A stretch of 64,000 bases of DNA from Psychromonas aquimarina ATCC BAA-1526. Its GTDB lineage: Bacteria > Pseudomonadota > Gammaproteobacteria > Enterobacterales > Psychromonadaceae. Where the stretch lies: contig NZ_KE386792.1 of the NCBI RefSeq assembly GCF_000428725.1, forward strand, positions 302,234-366,233. The letters run 5' to 3'. Numbering within the stretch: the stretch's first letter is position 1; each line of letters opens with the position of its first letter. The position numbers were made by a program, and so were the translations under genes. Below are positions 4,350-40,624 of the stretch, one piece after another. The notes beneath the pieces were generated by a model, which worked only from the letters and a program-made list of their open reading frames with translations, searched no databases and had not been told where the DNA came from.

Positions 4350-6181
4350 TAATTCAATGTAATAATTGAAGCTTTCTGCGCGATTTTAGAGCCGTTAATT
4401 TTTATACTGGTCCCTTTAATCTCAATCGCACCGCTGCTTTTCATGGTAATAGACGCGCCGCCGGTTTTAAGCACAATTTCACTGCCGGCTTCAATATTTA
4501 ATTTCTTGCCTACTTTGACAGTGTCATTATTACCAATATCCGCAAGGCGGTCATTGCCTGCTTTAATGGTGTCGTTATTAGCAATCTCCGTTAAGCGGTC
4601 ATTACCTATGGTGTCTTTCTGATCATTTTTAACATTCAGTTCATGATCTTTTTCCGCCTGGAAAAACAGCAGCTCTTTGCCTTTTTCATCTTCAAAGCGC
4701 ATCTCATTAAAGTTATTCGCACCGCCTTTTTTGGTACTGTGCGATTTAATACCGCTTTGAGTTTTCTTTGCAGGCAGTGCATAAGGAGGCATTAAATCTG
4801 CGTTGTAAACTGCGCCGCTGATAATCGGCTGATCCGGATCGCCGTTAATAAATTCAACCAGTACTTCCTGGCCGACACGGGGGAAAAAGAATGCGCCCCA
4901 TTTATTGCCGGCCCAGTTCTGGGCGACACGTATCCAGCAGGAACTTTTAGAGTCGTTTTTACCTTCTCTGTCCCAATGGAACTGCACCTTAACGCGGCCG
5001 AAATTATCCACTAATATCTCGTCACCGCTGTCTCCGGTTACAACGGCAGTCTGTACGCCGTTGATCAATGGCTTTTGAATTAAAGCTGACGGTCTGTAGG
5101 GAGTATTATCAGGTACACATTCAAAGTTGTTTTGGAAAACATCTCCACCGGACTGGCTTGCACCCGACTGGTTAGGCTGCGCGGCAGAAGTTAACAGCGC
5201 GGTTAAAACAAAACTTTTGCCTTGATAGCGTTCATCTTCATGATCGGAAAAGGTAAAGGATTTACCCACAGCAAAACTACGGCAGTCTCCTTGACCACTG
5301 GATTTATGCATATCTTTCTGCAGCGCTTCAAGGCGGATATCTGCAGCAGGCTTAGCACGTTTATTAAATTCTGATTCGCCCACATAATCATAAATTTCAT
5401 ATTTATCCTGTGCAGGCAGTGTCGCGACTTTATTTTCGCCGCTGGGAAATTTTTTAGGCTGCTTAAAGTCGTAACCTTTTTGTAAAAAGGCTCCGCTCAC
5501 CATACTCAACCCGCCCTGCCAGCCGGCAACATGAGATTCTGCTAATGAACCTGAAAAACATTTTACACTGCCTTCAGCACATTTTTCATAGGCATTAGGG
5601 CTGTCAGCAAGGATCAGCGTATGTGCTGATTTACTGTGTTCAAAGAAATAGAAGATACCTTCCTGCTGTAAAAGGCGGGTCACAAAATCCAGATCGGACT
5701 CTTGATACTGCACACAGTAATCATATTTTGCGTAGCTGCTGGTTGTTTTATCTTTAAATGCAACGTTATGCTGGCCGAACAGGTCAGTGATAATATCAAT
5801 CACAGATTTGTTTTGATAAATACGGCAGTTTGAGCGTTTTTCCATAAACGCCGTGCTGGGCAGGATGGTCAGATGATAATCGGTATAATCTTCTTTATCA
5901 TCCACAGCTGCAGTACGAGAGCCGCTCGATTCTATATGGCTTACGATGCCGTGGAAATAGCGGATAGAACCGCTGCTCAGCGCATTTCTCAATGAAATAC
6001 AAACAGGTTTTCCAACAAGACCGTCTAAGGTTATTTTTGTACCGACAGTGTACATCGAAGCTGAAAGTGAAAATGTTTGTGAAATTGCTTCTCTTGCAGA
6101 AAAATGAGTTAAATACAGGGTATCTTTACCAAGCGGTGTGGAGATACTGATGATATTATTTTTTTGTGTTGCCTTTTGCAT
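4349..6181 (-). CDS. vgrG: VgrG (TssI) T6SS spike protein
   Basis: VgrG forms the trimeric spike on top of the Hcp tube. The protein has a gp27-like base (first half), a gp5-like OB domain (FGRVKVQFHWD, then SSCWIRVAQNWAG and FFPRVGQEVLVEFINGDPD, all hallmark strings) and a C-terminal beta-helix needle with near-repeats of NDRL/NNDT. No enzymatic extension follows the needle, so it is a structural, cargo-carrying VgrG. The ATG at 6181 has GGGG six bases upstream; an in-frame TTG at 6193 is an alternative. Downstream lie its coupled effector candidate, a propeller protein and PAAR; Hcp is upstream. Confidence 0.96.
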   Translation of the reverse strand: MQKATQKNNIISISTPLGKDTLYLTHFSAREAISQTFSLSASMYTVGTKITLDGLVGKPVCISLRNALSSGSIRYFHGIVSHIESSGSRTAAVDDKEDYTDYHLTILPSTAFMEKRSNCRIYQNKSVIDIITDLFGQHNVAFKDKTTSSYAKYDYCVQYQESDLDFVTRLLQQEGIFYFFEHSKSAHTLILADSPNAYEKCAEGSVKCFSGSLAESHVAGWQGGLSMVSGAFLQKGYDFKQPKKFPSGENKVATLPAQDKYEIYDYVGESEFNKRAKPAADIRLEALQKDMHKSSGQGDCRSFAVGKSFTFSDHEDERYQGKSFVLTALLTSAAQPNQSGASQSGGDVFQNNFECVPDNTPYRPSALIQKPLINGVQTAVVTGDSGDEILVDNFGRVKVQFHWDREGKNDSKSSCWIRVAQNWAGNKWGAFFFPRVGQEVLVEFINGDPDQPIISGAVYNADLMPPYALPAKKTQSGIKSHSTKKGGANNFNEMRFEDEKGKELLFFQAEKDHELNVKNDQKDTIGNDRLTEIANNDTIKAGNDRLADIGNNDTVKVGKKLNIEAGSEIVLKTGGASITMKSSGAIEIKGTSIKINGSKIAQKASIITLN

Positions 6182-35239: not shown

Positions 35240-36706
35240 TCACTCCTCTTTTGTTGAAGAGGGATCACTTATCATGCACTCTTCGCTGTCTGCGCACATA
35301 TATGCCCGGCTCGAACAGAACGGCGTCAATGGCAAAGAGGAGCTGACCGGCAGCTCATCTTCCTCATGTACAAGTGCCTGCTCATCCTTACCTAAGCGGT
35401 GCAGAATACGCTGTGCCCAGAACCAGGCCAGTAAGCCGAATATAACGGATCCCGCCGCCTGACCAGCTATCACCCCGACGGCTCCATACCACTGCCCTCC
35501 AAAATAAACAAAAGGGATGGTTCCAAGAGTTGCTTTACCAATGTTCATTACCGTAGAAGTGCTGGGGTAACCTAAGTTATTAAACGCGGCGTTGGCGATA
35601 AACAAAATACCGTTAAAGATAAAGGCGGCGCATAACCAGGTACAATAGAAGCGAATCAATTCAGCTGCATCACCTTGTGCGCCGAAAATCAGGATCACCT
35701 GCTCCTGCAGCAGATAAATCAGTATCGCCAGCAGCGCAACATAACCAGCAGTAAACTGTACTGCCCGTTTAGCACTTAAGCGCACACGGTCATATAACTC
35801 AGCACCAAAGTTCTGCCCTATGATGGGGCCCACAGCTCCCGACATTGCGAAAATCATGCCAAAAGCAACCGGCAGTAAGCGGCCGACAACAGCCCAGCCG
35901 GCCACATAACTGTCACCAAAAGATGCAATCATCATGGTGACATAAGCATTTCCTATCGGTGTTGCCACATTGGTAGTCATGGCTGGAACAGCGACTTTAA
36001 AAATTTCTTTTTGATCTGCCAGCCACTCTCTGTAATGAAAACGCCCGACTAAATGATGCTTAGTCATAACGCCATGAAGGGCCACCCAGGCAACCGCACA
36101 ACGAGCTGCTACAGACGCGGCGGCGGCGCCATGTAAACCTAAGCTGAAAGTAAAAATAAACAGAGGATCTAAAACTGCATTAACCCCTCCACCAGCTAAG
36201 GTTGAATACATTGCACGTTTAGCATCCCCCACCGAACGCAGCGCGGCCCCTGCACTCATCGCTATACCTAAAATCGGTAACGAGGGAAGCAGGATGCGCA
36301 GATAGGTTACGGCGAGATCATGCGTTAAACCTTTGGCTCCAATCAGGCTGACCAGTTCAGGTGTGAAATACCATGCTATTGCCGACACTACAGTGCTTAT
36401 AATCAGCCCGGTCACCAGCACATTAATAACCAGCCTGCGCGCTTTTTCACGATCCTGCTGACCAATGGCTTTAGACACTAAAGCCGTCATCGAGATAGAT
36501 AAGCCAATAGAGATAGAAGTAGTAAAAAAAGCGATAGTGCCGGCATAACCAACAGCGGCCGCCAGCTCTGTTTCTCCTAACAGGCTGATGAAAAACAAAT
36601 CTGCCAGGTCAACGAGAAACAGCGCGGTTAAACCAATGGCATTGGTTGATGACATAATAACTATATGGCGGAAAATATTACCGCTGACAAACTTGCCTTT
36701 TACCAT
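35240..36706 (-). CDS. MATE-family efflux transporter
   Basis: This 488-residue protein has about 12 hydrophobic segments in two halves. NorM/DinF-like marks are GETELAAAVGYAG, GLSISMTALVSKAIGQQDREKA and GAALRSVGDAKRAMYST in the first half and GQNFGAELYDRV in the second. It probably exports organic cations or drugs using Na+ or H+. The C-terminal 50 residues are Ser-rich and charged, longer than usual. The gene is convergent with the methyltransferase relic and divergent from the SO_0444-type permease. Confidence 0.92.
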   Translation of the reverse strand: MVKGKFVSGNIFRHIVIMSSTNAIGLTALFLVDLADLFFISLLGETELAAAVGYAGTIAFFTTSISIGLSISMTALVSKAIGQQDREKARRLVINVLVTGLIISTVVSAIAWYFTPELVSLIGAKGLTHDLAVTYLRILLPSLPILGIAMSAGAALRSVGDAKRAMYSTLAGGGVNAVLDPLFIFTFSLGLHGAAAASVAARCAVAWVALHGVMTKHHLVGRFHYREWLADQKEIFKVAVPAMTTNVATPIGNAYVTMMIASFGDSYVAGWAVVGRLLPVAFGMIFAMSGAVGPIIGQNFGAELYDRVRLSAKRAVQFTAGYVALLAILIYLLQEQVILIFGAQGDAAELIRFYCTWLCAAFIFNGILFIANAAFNNLGYPSTSTVMNIGKATLGTIPFVYFGGQWYGAVGVIAGQAAGSVIFGLLAWFWAQRILHRLGKDEQALVHEEDELPVSSSLPLTPFCSSRAYMCADSEECMISDPSSTKEE

Positions 36707-36861: not shown

Positions 36862-36890
36862 TTGACAAGAGGCTTTGCCTGCACTATATT
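36862..36890 (+). promoter_or_regulatory. Sigma-70 promoter of the SO_0444-type permease
   Basis: TTGACA at 36862-36867, 17 bp, then TATATT at 36885-36890, near consensus. The -10 overlaps the shared operator-like element, which fits repression by the downstream ArsR protein. Confidence 0.75.
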
Positions 36891-36907
36891 TCGAAACATC
36901 TAGAAAT
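36888..36907. promoter_or_regulatory. Shared operator-like element at the permease promoter
   Basis: ATTTCGA-N5-CTAGAAAT is an imperfect dyad covering the -10/+1 region. The same 15 defined bases recur, inverted, at 38561-38580 before arsR, with only the five central bases differing. Confidence 0.72.
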
Positions 36908-36930
36908 AACAAAGAGGTTAGATAAATATT

Positions 36931-37998
36931 ATGAGTCCTGAAATTTTAACTATGGCCAGAGAGGCCCTAGACATGTTCGCTTTCTTAGCGACCGAATTAA
37001 TTATTCTTTTTTTAGTCATCAGCTATCTTGTTGGTGTGCTGCAGGAGTTTATAACTCCCGAAAAAATCCAGTCGATCCTGAGTTCACGCAAGGGAAAAGG
37101 CTATATTATCGCGGCGCTGCTTGGTTCCATTACTCCATTCTGCTCCTGCTCAACCATTCCTTTTTTAAAAGGGCTGCTTAGAGCAAGAGCCGGATTTGGT
37201 CCTATGATGGTATTTTTATTCTCCAGTCCTCTGCTTAATCCCGTCATTATCGGCCTGTTTGTCGTGACCTTCGGTATTAAAGTAGCCCTGTTCTACTTCC
37301 TTGTCGCAATCATTGTGGCAGTGACGTCTGGTTTTGTGCTGGAAAAACTGGGATTTGAAAGATATGTAAGACCTGAAGCCTATGAGATAACAGAAAGCTC
37401 AAGCTGCGGCACATCATGCGGAACTGAAAAAGAACAAGCACCGGTATCCTGCTGCAGCAGCACACCAGAGCCTGTAACCGCTTCATGCAGTTCAGCAGCC
37501 CCGGCGATGGCAGGAGCTTCATGCAGTGACAGCGCTCCGGCGGCAGCCGCCTGCTGTGACGGTATCTCTGAAGTCAAAAAACAAGATAACCGCTGGATGC
37601 GCATCTGGCTCTCAACCTGGAAAGACTTCAAACAGGTGTTTCCCTACTTATTGCTGGGTATCTCAATAGGTGCATTCATCTACGGCTTTATCCCGACAGA
37701 TTTAATAGCAGAGTATGCCGGTGAAGCTAACTGGTATGCTGTCCCAATAGCTGCTGTTATTGGTATCCCGCTATACATTCGAGCAGAAGCGGTTATCCCT
37801 CTAAGCGCGGCTCTGGTTAGCAAGGGCATGGCTTTAGGATCGGTAATGGCACTGATTATCGGCAGCGCAGGTGCGAGTTTGACCGAAGTTATTCTGTTGA
37901 AATCCATATTTAAAAACCAGATGATTGCCGCGTTTCTAACCGTGATCCTAGGTATGGCAGTGGGTGCCGGTTACCTTTATTCATTTATGTTCGGCTGA
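36931..37998 (+). CDS. SO_0444-type Cu/Zn efflux permease (DUF318-like)
   Basis: This 355-residue protein has about eight membrane segments. GSITPFCSCSTIPFLKG (about 68-84) is the signature of the ArsP/DUF318 permease family, and the same block has a loose counterpart near the end (IRAEAVIPLSAAL). The loop between the halves (about 150-215) is packed with Cys: SSCGTSC, SCCSS, SCSS, SCSD and CCDG, about a dozen Cys in 65 residues, suited to soft-metal binding. SO_0444-type members are annotated as Cu/Zn exporters. It heads the thiol/metal module. Confidence 0.9.
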   Translation: MSPEILTMAREALDMFAFLATELIILFLVISYLVGVLQEFITPEKIQSILSSRKGKGYIIAALLGSITPFCSCSTIPFLKGLLRARAGFGPMMVFLFSSPLLNPVIIGLFVVTFGIKVALFYFLVAIIVAVTSGFVLEKLGFERYVRPEAYEITESSSCGTSCGTEKEQAPVSCCSSTPEPVTASCSSAAPAMAGASCSDSAPAAAACCDGISEVKKQDNRWMRIWLSTWKDFKQVFPYLLLGISIGAFIYGFIPTDLIAEYAGEANWYAVPIAAVIGIPLYIRAEAVIPLSAALVSKGMALGSVMALIIGSAGASLTEVILLKSIFKNQMIAAFLTVILGMAVGAGYLYSFMFG

Positions 37999-38014
37999 TT
38001 ATTAATACAGTGAA

Positions 38015-38043
38015 GGCCGGCAGCTGCCGGCCTGATTTTTTAT
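38015..38043 (+). terminator. Intrinsic terminator after the permease
   Basis: GGCCGGC and GCCGGCC pair around AGCT (38015-38032), followed by a T-rich run, 17 bp after the stop. Confidence 0.88.
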
Positions 38044-38110
38044 TCAGCGCAATGCCTGCTGTCAGGCAGTTTAACTATTTCCATATCATTAATATTTTAA
38101 GGTGTTCTTT

Positions 38111-38419
38111 ATGTTAAAAATTAAAAGTTTAAGTCTAGTTTGTGCATTTTTATTCTCCGGCTCAGCTTTTGCTGGAATTCAAGTTACTGATAAAGCACAA
38201 GGAGCCTGGGTGCAGGTTACTGATAACAATCAGCCCTCGGTCAATGCCGAAGTATCCATAACCAACTTATCTATGCACAGTGAAACTTACTTAACTGATG
38301 ATAAAGGTAAGGTTTATATTCCAATAACAGCACCTTACGCTCGTCATATTAAATATCTAGCAGTTACAAAGGACGGGACCGAATTTACCAAATCAGCATT
38401 CCATTCTAGAGATAAATAA
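38111..38419 (+). CDS. Small exported protein, unrecognised
   Basis: I choose the ATG at 38111 with AAGGTG six bases upstream; the in-frame GTG at 38102 is part of that Shine-Dalgarno region. The 102-residue protein has a signal peptide (LCSLVCAF-like hydrophobic core ending SGSAFA, cleavage before GIQV). The mature part resembles a single beta-sandwich domain with a carboxypeptidase-regulatory-like pattern (VSITNLSMHSETYLTDDKG). No Cys remains in the mature protein. Its position inside the metal module hints at a periplasmic partner; this is inference. Confidence 0.75.
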   Translation: MLKIKSLSLVCAFLFSGSAFAGIQVTDKAQGAWVQVTDNNQPSVNAEVSITNLSMHSETYLTDDKGKVYIPITAPYARHIKYLAVTKDGTEFTKSAFHSRDK

Positions 38420-38427
38420 TATCCAGG

Positions 38428-38460
38428 CCGCCTTCGCCTTTCAAGAAGGCGGTTTGCTTT
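38428..38460 (+). terminator. Intrinsic terminator after the small exported protein
   Basis: CCGCCTTC (38428-38435) pairs with GAAGGCGG (38445-38452), followed by TTTGCTTT. Confidence 0.8.
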
Positions 38461-38560
38461 AACTGTCCCTGCATCACTAATTCTAACCACTCGTTACACT
38501 GCAGCTTTGCAGTATGGCGAAAGCCCCCTTCCAGCGTTAATTATTGGCACGCTAAATAAA

Positions 38561-38580
38561 TTTCTAGTAAGATCGAAATA
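38561..38580. promoter_or_regulatory. Shared operator-like element at the arsR promoter
   Basis: ATTTCTAG-N5-TCGAAAT is the inverse of the permease element at 36888-36907. A TTGGCA at 38545-38550 with TAAGAT 18 bp later places it over the -10, which suggests autorepression. Confidence 0.7.
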
Positions 38581-38601
38581 CAATTTCAAAGAGGCAGAAC
38601 T

Positions 38602-38895
38602 ATGGACATTGATATTATTGCTAAGGCGTTAAAAGAGTTAGGACATCCGACTCGATTAACGATTTATAAAAGCGTCGTTCGTGCAGGCTATCAAGGTATT
38701 GCAGTGGGAGGTTTACAAAAAAAACTGGGGATTCCAGGTTCAACACTCTCGCACCACATTTCAAGCCTGGTTTCAGCCGGACTGATTTCACAGCGCCGCG
38801 AAAGCCGCACTCTTTTCTGCGTTGCAGAGTTTGAAAAACTACAGTCAGTGATTGCTTTCTTACAAGATGAGTGCTGCATTGATGAAGAATGCTGA
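38602..38895 (+). CDS. ArsR-family repressor
   Basis: This 97-residue protein is mostly a winged helix (ALKELGHPTRLTIYKSVVRAG, then GIPGSTLSHHISSLVSAGLI, recognition helix, and QRRESRTLFC wing). Cys82 and three Cys in the tail (ECCIDEEC) could bind a soft metal or thiol-reactive compound. The tail Cys motif is the likely sensor. A protein of this type in the module probably represses both its own gene and the permease through the shared operator. Confidence 0.93.
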   Translation: MDIDIIAKALKELGHPTRLTIYKSVVRAGYQGIAVGGLQKKLGIPGSTLSHHISSLVSAGLISQRRESRTLFCVAEFEKLQSVIAFLQDECCIDEEC

Positions 38896-39232
38896 ATCAA
38901 ACATTCTCTTATATACCCAAGCTGCCTGAATCTGTATCTTCAAGTGGTTTGGGTATACACAGTCCGGTTTGTTCATAAACCGGCAAACTGATAGTGATAT
39001 TCAATGCTTAATCTTTAAGGGGGGTCATTCATATTGTTACCCGACAACATTATAAGCAGGCAGTTAAAATAGTAATAAGCCCAAATATTCCACCTCTGCA
39101 GATCACTGTCGGGACATTACGAGCCAGCTTAACTAGACTAAAACAAATTTTTTTAAGAATATTTCGTCTTTTCCGAAAACAACTCGTCTTATAAGTGTAA
39201 ATAACTTAAACCCCTTAAGAAGAGAGTAAAAA
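38896..39232. other. Intergenic region before the GST-like gene
   Basis: It holds a palindromic element at 38912-38957 and, near 39164-39195, two CGTCTT motifs (one in TTTCGTCTTTTCCGAAA, one in CTCGTCTTATAAG) that resemble ECF-type -10 elements. No ORF is supported. Confidence 0.6.
38912..38957. repeat. Palindromic intergenic element
   Basis: TATACCCAA (38912-38920) and TTGGGTATA (38949-38957) are perfect arms with a partly complementary interior. It could terminate arsR on the plus strand. The form is like short interspersed palindromes of marine gammaproteobacteria, but only one copy lies in this window. Confidence 0.5.
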
Positions 39233-39931
39233 ATGATTAAAATAATCAGCTTTAAAATTTGTCCGTTTGTTCAACGTGTCACTGCAGTTCTAGAAGCAAA
39301 GCAGGTTGCATATGAAATTGAATATATTAACCTCAAAGACAAACCTCAATGGTTTCTGGACATATCGCCAAATGGTCAAGTACCCGTGATGGTCACTGAG
39401 TCCGGCACAGCTCTGTTTGAATCTGATGCTATCGTTGAATATATCGAAGATGAGTATGGTCCGCTGGAGCAGGGTGTCAGCAATGAACAGCGGGCACTGG
39501 ACCGGGCATGGAGTTACTTAGGTACAAAGAACTATCTTGTTCAGTGCGGAACCATGAGCAGCAAAGATAAAGAAACTTTCAAGCAGCGGACAGAAAAGTT
39601 TACAGCGGCATTTACTAAAATTGAAAAGCAGCTGTCAGGTGAGACGAGATTCTTTAAGTCGGATATTTTAAGCAGCGTTGATATTGCCTGGCTCCCGCTG
39701 CTTCATCGTGCGGCCATAGTAAAAAAATACACAGGTTTTGATTTCCTGTGCGGCATGCCTAAAACACAAGCCTGGCAGCAGGCAGTGTTAGCGGCTGGTC
39801 TTGCCGAGAAAACAGTCTCGGAAGACTTTGAAGCGTTGTTCACAGACTTTTATCTAACAAATACCTATTTAGGTTTAGGTGAAGATGCAGCAGAAAACGC
39901 AGGATGCGGCTCCAGCAGCTGCTGCGGTTAA
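39233..39931 (+). CDS. Glutathione S-transferase-like protein with Cys-rich tail
   Basis: This 232-residue protein has a thioredoxin-fold N-terminal domain with a catalytic-type Cys (KICPFVQRV, about 8-16), the cis-Pro segment GQVPVMV and the GSH-binding ESDAIVEYI; the rest is the helical GST domain. This is an omega/beta-like Cys GST. The tail ends NAGCGSSSCCG, an unusual extension that matches the Cys motifs of the neighbouring repressor, sigma factor and permease. A role in thiol or metal handling is inferred. Confidence 0.87.
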   Translation: MIKIISFKICPFVQRVTAVLEAKQVAYEIEYINLKDKPQWFLDISPNGQVPVMVTESGTALFESDAIVEYIEDEYGPLEQGVSNEQRALDRAWSYLGTKNYLVQCGTMSSKDKETFKQRTEKFTAAFTKIEKQLSGETRFFKSDILSSVDIAWLPLLHRAAIVKKYTGFDFLCGMPKTQAWQQAVLAAGLAEKTVSEDFEALFTDFYLTNTYLGLGEDAAENAGCGSSSCCG

Positions 39932-39943
39932 CTCCCGACAATA

Positions 39944-39977
39944 GCAAGTGCTCGACGGAGCACTTGCCTTTTCTTCT
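39944..39977 (+). terminator. Intrinsic terminator after the GST-like gene
   Basis: GCAAGTGCTC (39944-39953) and GAGCACTTGC (39958-39967) pair around GACG, followed by CTTTTCTTCTT. Confidence 0.92.
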
Positions 39978-40081
39978 TGATATAGTGCGGCGCCGTTATT
40001 TACGGCTCATACTTGATTGCGGGATATTGGAGTATAAAATTATTAAGTGATTATCCTAAAATAATAAACTGGTAATAATTG

Positions 40082-40624
40082 ATGAATGTAGAAACAATCT
40101 GGCCGGAATATCAAGCAGGCCTCAAGGCATTTCTGTACAAAAATGTATCCAACCCTGATGATGTTGAAGATCTGCTGCAGGAAATTCTTATCAAAACGTA
40201 TCAGAACCTAAATACTGTAAAAGAGAATACAAAAGTAAAATCGTGGTTATTTCAGATTGCCGGCAACACCCTTATCGATTTTTACCGCAGCCGTGCTAAA
40301 GGAGCAGATATTACTCAGGAGATACTTTGGTATGCACAGCCTGATAAAAACGTGTTCCAGCAGCTGTCACTATGCATACTTCCTTTTATAAACGCCCTGC
40401 CCGAAGAAGAGGCAAAGCTGCTGACTGCTGTCGAGATCGACGGCCTGTCACAAAAAGCATATGCTGAAAAAATTGGAGTGAAATATTCAACACTCAAATC
40501 AAGGGTGCAGAAAAGCCGCCAGATGCTTTATGGGCTGTTCAGCGACTGTTGTGAGTTATCTATTGACCATAAAGGGAATTTGATGGACTTTCAGGCAAAA
40601 AGAAAAAACTGCTCCAGTTGTTAA
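40082..40624 (+). CDS. sigZ: SigZ-type ECF sigma factor
   Basis: This is a 180-residue sigma-70-family factor. Region 2 (about 15-80) has the DVEDLLQEILIKTYQNL block and VKSWLFQIAGNTLIDFYRS. Region 4 (about 110-150) has INALPEEEAKLL and AYAEKIGVKYSTLKSRVQKS. The tail ends FQAKRKNCSSC, with Cys in a CxxC pair. The ATG at 40082 follows a weak GGTAA; a TTG one codon earlier is possible. No anti-sigma gene is adjacent, so direct thiol/metal control through the CxxC tail is a possibility. Confidence 0.9.
   Translation: MNVETIWPEYQAGLKAFLYKNVSNPDDVEDLLQEILIKTYQNLNTVKENTKVKSWLFQIAGNTLIDFYRSRAKGADITQEILWYAQPDKNVFQQLSLCILPFINALPEEEAKLLTAVEIDGLSQKAYAEKIGVKYSTLKSRVQKSRQMLYGLFSDCCELSIDHKGNLMDFQAKRKNCSSC

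Follow-up and report, generated by a model that had tools for sequence, protein, structure and literature searches.

We analyzed a 64,000-nucleotide stretch of the Psychromonas aquimarina ATCC BAA-1526 genome (contig NZ_KE386792.1, positions 302,234 to 366,233; hereafter the window) in which neighboring genes encode a predicted ArsP-type permease, an ArsR repressor, a glutathione S-transferase (GST) of the omega/DHAR-like cysteine type and SigZ, an extracytoplasmic function (ECF) sigma factor (Table 1). A preliminary description of the locus had pointed to cysteine motifs in all four products, namely a Cys-packed permease loop, ECCIDEEC at the end of ArsR, CGSSSCC at the end of the GST and CSSC at the end of SigZ, and each was found where it had been placed. 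A fifth gene of the span, whose product is apparently secreted, was recovered from no fetched region other than that of G018 and is treated here as a passenger. The genes of the window are greedy calls, and neighboring genes were called by simple open reading frame (ORF) rules. The feature that carries our interpretation is a two-box element, CGTCTT-N14-CGTCTTA, upstream of the GST gene, which we interpret as the promoter through which SigZ would control a glutathione/arsenical regulon.

The element was present in exact form in 46 of 57 distinct GST upstream regions, and its spacer was 14 bases long in all 46, lengths of 11–18 having been allowed, with the second box ending a median of 38.5 bases 5' of the start codon. 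It was found in gammaproteobacteria and in Rhodobacterales-type alphaproteobacteria. Genome contigs were scanned with a SigZ alignment, by patterns free of Cys, and the best 80 of 304 loci were kept; a looser form of the element gave 55 matches in 53 of these 80 loci, 41 of them before a GST gene, versus two matches for the reversed pattern. In 34 genomes that we picked ourselves, with SigZ presence defined by an E value of 1e-38, the exact element occurred in 18/18 SigZ-bearing and 2/16 SigZ-lacking genomes (Fisher P 9e-8). The element had already been seen in a fetched locus for some of these, both SigZ-bearing (G000, G006, G141, G127, G043, G271, G150, G209, G098 and G276) and SigZ-lacking (G153 and G386); among genomes not seen beforehand the exact element was present in 8/8 with SigZ versus 0/14 lacking it. 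In the second scan, of 20 genomes, the reversed pattern was never matched exactly. Altered boxes (GCGTCC.../GCATCTTTT...GCGTCTTTAA) were observed upstream of GST genes in loci L144, L147, L140 and L141, near a divergent SigZ or with no close SigZ, and possibly reflect a changed sigma specificity.

The genes that follow the element form a coherent set. All 34 exact sites were placed, 32 of which precede genes of the following kinds: GST (9), eukaryotic-type glutathione synthase (6), PatB C-S lyase (5), genes that we take to be rlmJ-like (4), ArsH (3), gshA (2), sigZ itself (1, in G098), an ArsP-family permease (1) and an ArsK-like MFS transporter (1). At the one rlmJ-like site whose next gene was examined (L370), the target is followed by the glutathione reductase gene gor. 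The other two sites, both in G369 (L389), are on opposite strands with ~120 bases between them, flanked by an amidohydrolase-like gene on one side and a GltP-like symporter on the other. Target families were checked on examples, with scores above the cut-offs for PatB (TIGR04350, 342–356 versus 340), glutathione reductase (761 versus 480), ArsH (359 versus 292) and gshA (456 versus 393); the glutathione synthase example scored 216 over 25 with PF03917 and 253, under the cut-off of 330, with TIGR01986, and the ArsK-like example scored 172, under the ArsK cut-off of 400. Because the reference target proteins came partly from earlier sites in G043, G271 and the SigZ loci, it is the recurrence of a target, not its first find, that counts as evidence.

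Table 1. Coordinates of genes and features at the locus, numbered from the first base of the window.
Feature	Position	Strand	Details
Predicted sigma-70-like permease promoter, TTGACA-17-TATATT	36862..36890	+	11/12 consensus matches, consensus match only
Putative ArsR operator ATTTCTAGATGTTTCGAAAT	36888..36907	-	Overlaps permease promoter; exact match to ATTTCTAGNNNNNTCGAAAT
Predicted ArsP-type permease gene	36931..37998	+	PF03773, 205 bits versus cut-off 32
Permease central loop	37380..37590	+	8 Cys
Terminator-like hairpin 3' of permease	38014..38033	+	
Fifth gene of span, product apparently secreted	38111-38419		One Cys
Predicted sigma-70-like arsR promoter	38544..38573	+	9/12 consensus matches, consensus match only
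Putative ArsR operator ATTTCTAGTAAGATCGAAAT	38560..38579	+	Upstream of arsR; exact pattern match; conserved in relatives
ArsR repressor gene	38602..38895	+	Cys91, Cys92 and Cys97; NF033788, 56.7 versus cut-off 55
Two-box element CGTCTTTTCCGAAAACAACTCGTCTTA, proposed SigZ promoter of GST	39165..39191	+	Single exact match in 5.5 Mb assembly
GST gene, omega/DHAR-like Cys-type	39233..39931	+	Active-site-like CPFVQR
GST Cys tail GCGSSSCCG	39902..39928	+	
Terminator-like hairpin between GST and sigZ	39944..39967	+	
sigZ, ECF sigma factor	40082..40624	+	ATG start; TTG at 40079 possible alternative
Codon of invariant SigZ Cys98	40373..40375	+	
Codons of invariant SigZ Cys156-Cys157	40547..40552	+	
SigZ terminal CxxC (CSSC)	40610..40621	+	Each Cys conserved in ≥90% of 69 sequences

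The association of SigZ with the GST extends to whole genomes. With presence thresholds of E 1e-45 for the GST and E 1e-38 for SigZ, 30 of 394 genomes of the order have the GST, 36 have SigZ and 23 have both, whereas 2.7 would be expected (hypergeometric P 4e-22, without correction for kinship); a wider GST search in the class found it in 2/316 genomes, the window's own included, and therefore added no contrast. Within 1.6 kb of sigZ, the 80 loci contain GST (43), ArsR (17), the permease (13), ArsH (7), ferredoxin (4), ACR3 (2) and flavoproteins presumed to be ArsO-like (2), the ArsH and ACR3 examples scoring over curated cut-offs. The composition of the module is mosaic: the permease pairs with arsR, arsR pairs with sigZ in vibrios (the matches being 10–13 bases apart in G066, G209, G271 and G043) and sigZ pairs with GST in several genera. 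A single fetched region contained all four genes in the window, in G156 and in G209; in G006 it contained the permease, sigZ and GST. The earlier proposal that these neighbors form a thiol/metalloid module is thus borne out by the SigZ-GST co-occurrence and the common promoter element, and its expectation that the tails are kept and the genes travel together holds for two pairs, GST-sigZ and arsR-sigZ; the complete foursome is uncommon. In our reading, the arsR-sigZ units of vibrios would tie the proposed SigZ regulon to arsenic.

Other Cys-rich products were seen around sigZ. In L137 of G310 (5577-5957, minus strand), a 126-residue, very Cys-rich protein with no Pfam match is encoded between arsR and a divergent SigZ-like gene. 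ArsO-like flavoproteins with Cys tails (e.g., TSCCG) adjoin sigZ in L123 (4348-5700), L240 (6040-7428), L190 and L218, and ArsH-like proteins with CCxxxCC-type tails are encoded divergently from sigZ in L129 (6521-7255) and L130 (6054-6836).

SigZ became known with the Bacillus subtilis genome. The window protein scored above the cut-offs of both family models (PRK09637, 230 versus 212 bits; TIGR02959, 194 versus 169 bits). Its C-terminus is NCSSC, and it has an internal CC at residues 156-157 that was absent from the preliminary description. An alignment of 69 SigZ sequences has 15 invariant columns, three of which are cysteines (98, 156 and 157, each 69/69), and Cys177 and Cys180 are conserved in at least 90%. 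Among the 80 loci, three of which contain in-frame stops, the CC and a Cys in the region of residue 98 were both present in 80/80 and a CxxC after the CC in 68/80. A SigZ from a Priestia plasmid, with 40% identity, keeps the CC and the equivalent of Cys98 and lacks the terminal CxxC. The structure model of SigZ has an ECF fold with Cys98 inside helix 89-104. SigZ has this single invariant Cys rather than the CXC that marks the region 2-4 linker of CorE-like factors, and its C-terminal cysteines, which may or may not form a metal-binding, activity-setting domain like the Cys-rich one of CorE-like factors, are present and conserved. No anti-sigma factor of the RsrA kind was noticed beside sigZ in the loci viewed. 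Because Cys98, Cys156 and Cys157 are invariant, we suggest that they may constitute an on-board thiol sensor like that of CorE or OrbS. The literature searched, mostly outside subscription papers, gave no target set or stimulus for SigZ and contained no link between it and arsenic or glutathione. Among sigZ reading frames, those of L131, L219, L235 and L247 have in-frame stops and are perhaps decaying copies.

The window ArsR, which ends in ECCIDEEC, has as its nearest solved chain 6j05, which we take to be AfArsR, and its C91/C92 align with positions 95/96 of that chain. The As(III) site of AfArsR is formed by Cys95, Cys96 and Cys102 (CC-x5-C), and SpArsR, in which the third Cys is missing, responds to methylarsenite alone, according to the available text of PMC13236881. 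By alignment, therefore, the CC of the window ArsR is at the known As(III) position; its third cysteine, Cys97, lies one residue nearer than AfArsR Cys102 (CC-x4-C). The window protein is in this respect not of the SpArsR type, although close relatives without the third Cys exist (e.g., G017). The pattern ATTTCTAGNNNNNTCGAAAT has two exact occurrences in the window, one over the permease promoter and one over the arsR promoter (compared with 0.22 expected when two mismatches are allowed), so that permease and arsR have one exact putative operator in common, and many relatives have close forms, recognized by eye, 5' of arsR and of the divergent permease gene.

The permease has 10 Cys, eight of them within its central loop. 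Its PF03773 (ArsP_1) domain also covers SO_0444-type proteins, and the preliminary description had named SO_0444 among similar gene neighborhoods; we rejected a Cu/Zn permease identity of that kind because the NF033936 score was 119 bits against a cut-off of 300. On its domain the permease is of the ArsP type, and its predicted role is organoarsenical efflux. A second ArsP-family permease, with 25% identity, is encoded elsewhere in the window's genome (G000:C30:22772-23770, L002).

The GST ends in CGSSSCCG, and the stretch C10-P11-F12-V13-Q14-R15 is invariant in 25 homologues. Its sequence and its nearest solved chains (thiol-dependent reductase 1, GST omega-1 and DHAR) place it with the omega/DHAR-like proteins, which have a catalytic-type Cys in a CPF motif; omega GSTs presumably also serve as arsenical reductases. 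The tails of its homologues mostly end in CC or CCG and contain from 0 to 22 Cys. Metallothionein-like GST tails with 22 and 11 Cys were noted in L181 (5022 onward) and in L232 and L234 (6650 onward), the latter beside ACR3 and sigZ.

The Cys motifs of SigZ, GST and ArsR are far above the base rate of their neighbors. At least three Cys in the last 25 residues were found in 38/46 GST, 69/81 SigZ and 17/18 ArsR homologues, compared with 2/202 unlabelled ORFs near sigZ and 1/285 far from it (ORFs of at least 150 residues in the 80 SigZ loci); the permease, whose Cys are in its loop, gave 0/14. In the window, 4/53 genes have such a tail, namely those of ArsR, GST, SigZ and a transporter (35240-36706). 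The latter, encoded on the minus strand and presumably MATE-like, has three Cys among its last 25 residues, and the same tail recurs in G006 (L106, 842-2395).

The preliminary description had further proposed that unrelated folds gained these tails side by side. Our comparisons do not support this. The ArsR CC is at the known As(III) position, SigZ has its invariant Cys98 and CC also in Priestia, and most members of the GST family have the tail, including ones encoded away from sigZ, although it has been lost several times; judged from homologues, the motifs are old family features. The third ArsR Cys was present in 34/36 rows with sigZ beside arsR versus 21/81 without, and a GST tail of at least three Cys in 48/56 rows near sigZ versus 9/17 not near, counts in which many rows are vibrios, the same strain can appear twice (e.g., G209 and L209) and G209 was scored as not adjacent though only one gene intervenes. 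In six vibrio genomes with GST and sigZ on different chromosomes the GST tail has 0 or 1 Cys. Kinship-aware tests, which had no power with only four independent pairs, gave 1.2 versus 0.2 and 1.2 versus 0.0 for changes in the same versus the other direction. We do not claim joint change of the tails because so few independent pairs were available on the trees.

From the operators, the promoter element, the co-occurrence and the invariant cysteines found in the sequences, we propose, with rather more confidence than doubt, a two-tier arsenical/thiol defense module, for which SigZ as reader of the element, the ligands, the sensing step and the GST chemistry are what we infer. In the first tier, ArsR would occupy the matching operators over the promoters of arsP, the permease gene, and arsR; trivalent arsenic, probably methylarsenite and perhaps arsenite, would bind its CC(-x4-C) site and release it, and ArsP would then export the organoarsenical. 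In the second tier, SigZ would read CGTCTT-N14-CGTCTTA, which is the simplest account of the element, and turn on the Cys-tailed omega-like GST, together in vibrios with gshA, the eukaryotic-type glutathione synthase, glutathione reductase and the PatB C-S lyase, and elsewhere with ArsH. Since sigZ directly follows arsR in vibrios, arsenic would there raise SigZ, feeding the glutathione supply, the GST and, elsewhere, ArsH. Cys98 and Cys156-157 may let SigZ directly detect trivalent arsenic, a soft metal or an electrophile, with no anti-sigma factor. The GST may rely on Cys10 together with glutathione for the reduction or deglutathionylation of arsenicals or adducts of electrophiles, and the metalloid would be held by the Cys tail of the enzyme.

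More tentatively, and with the chances somewhat against it, SigZ may be self-sensing. Trivalent arsenic or an electrophile would bridge Cys98 and Cys156-157, the terminal CxxC serving as a second site, and would switch on through the element a whole glutathione economy (gshA, the synthase, gor, the Cys-tailed GST and the C-S lyase) along with arsenical genes. Such a regulon would be the equivalent, for glutathione, of the thiol regulon of SigR, spread over marine gamma- and alphaproteobacteria, with the sensing cysteines already present in the SigZ of Bacillota.

Several observations weigh against the two-tier proposal. The sigZ of the window has no element of its own, is separated from the GST by a terminator-like hairpin and does not have arsR in front of it. 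The window's assembly contains the exact element at the GST only, so the larger regulon is one shown in relatives. Genomes G153 and G386 have the element with no close SigZ, and at one mismatch the reversed pattern outnumbers the true one in G000 (21 versus 3), for which reason only exact copies are informative. Among the 80 sigZ loci, 16 have no GST or ars gene within 1.6 kb, some being cut by contig ends, and our counts carry a kinship bias ("16 of 394 genomes' worth"). Lastly, the structure model of SigZ informs on its fold and not on the distance between Cys98 and Cys156-157.

Among other explanations, one that we think unlikely but worth keeping in view is that SigZ drives the GST and glutathione genes while its cysteines are structural, as a zinc site or in folding, and regulation is by amount only, through ArsR where arsR precedes sigZ and otherwise through SigZ itself or another promoter. 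The arsR-sigZ units of vibrios and the element before sigZ in G098 and some other loci fit this, but three Cys among 15 invariant columns and a near-universal CxxC fit ligand binding, with the caveat that a structural metal would leave the same pattern. We are similarly doubtful that the locus serves a general defense against electrophiles (methylglyoxal, quinones or reactive sulfur) with the arsenic genes as mere guests. The GST, gshA, glutathione synthase, gor and PatB C-S lyase would indeed make up a route for electrophile conjugates, and a curcumin-reductase family member lies beside sigZ in L188; against this stand the ArsH, ACR3, ArsR and ArsP neighbors and the copies of the element found before ArsH genes. 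We consider it quite improbable that the locus is an SO_0444-like module for the efflux and sensing of Cu, Zn or Cd. The permease does match the SO_0444 model weakly, soft metals are also bound by Cys clusters and, in the available text of PMC8999054, CorE senses Cu and CorE2 Cd/Zn, but the match is far under its cut-off, sigZ neighbors elsewhere are ArsH and ACR3, and the regulator here is an ArsR with an arsenic-type CC, whereas the accessible part of PMC3219624 has SO_0444 accompanied by a ZntR-like regulator. Least probable of all is that the two boxes, although near-identical direct repeats such as a dimeric regulator might bind and sometimes near LysR genes, are the site of another regulator traveling with sigZ, since sigZ is the sole regulator common to the loci, the spacing is fixed at 14 with the second box at its typical distance from the start codon, and divergent SigZ loci (G390 and G250) have boxes that by eye are visibly divergent.

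The two-box element is a new finding. With a fixed promoter element, coherent target genes and three invariant cysteines, the targets and stimulus of SigZ become testable. If the two-tier proposal is true, a sigma factor connects arsenic sensing with the glutathione supply, and the Cys-tailed omega-like GST is a candidate bacterial arsenical reductase or carrier.

The proposed system has likenesses to several known ones. SigR-RsrA of Streptomyces controls a mycothiol/thiol regulon, and SigZ would likewise be a sigma factor that runs low-molecular-weight thiol genes, though for glutathione instead of mycothiol and with no RsrA-like anti-sigma factor noticed beside it. The GST shares its CPF-type Cys site and nearest solved chains with GST omega, DHAR and thiol-dependent reductase, but differs in belonging to a bacterial family whose members carry a CC tail of 2 to 22 Cys at the C-terminus and in having the two-box element. 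The SigZ of Bacillus (TIGR02959) is of the same family, and the Priestia plasmid SigZ keeps the Cys98 equivalent and the CC; unlike the window SigZ, that protein has no terminal CxxC and its neighbors are not ars or GST genes. An ArsP_1 permease beside an ArsR whose CC falls on 6j05 positions 95-96, with operators over both promoters, resembles the ArsR-ArsP methylarsenite module (SpArsR/AfArsR-type), from which the locus departs in the 8-Cys permease loop, in the accompanying sigma factor and GST, and in the CC-x4-C of its ArsR, whose third Cys is one place nearer than in the CC-x5-C given for AfArsR in the available text of PMC13236881. Finally, CorE and CorE2 of Myxococcus (ECF238, formerly ECF44) and OrbS of Burkholderia are, like SigZ, ECF sigma factors with conserved C-terminal cysteines and no neighboring anti-sigma factor noticed; SigZ belongs to a different family and has CC-x19-CxxC and the single Cys98 in place of the CorE CXC and the CorE2 and OrbS motifs set out in the accessible part of PMC9023288.

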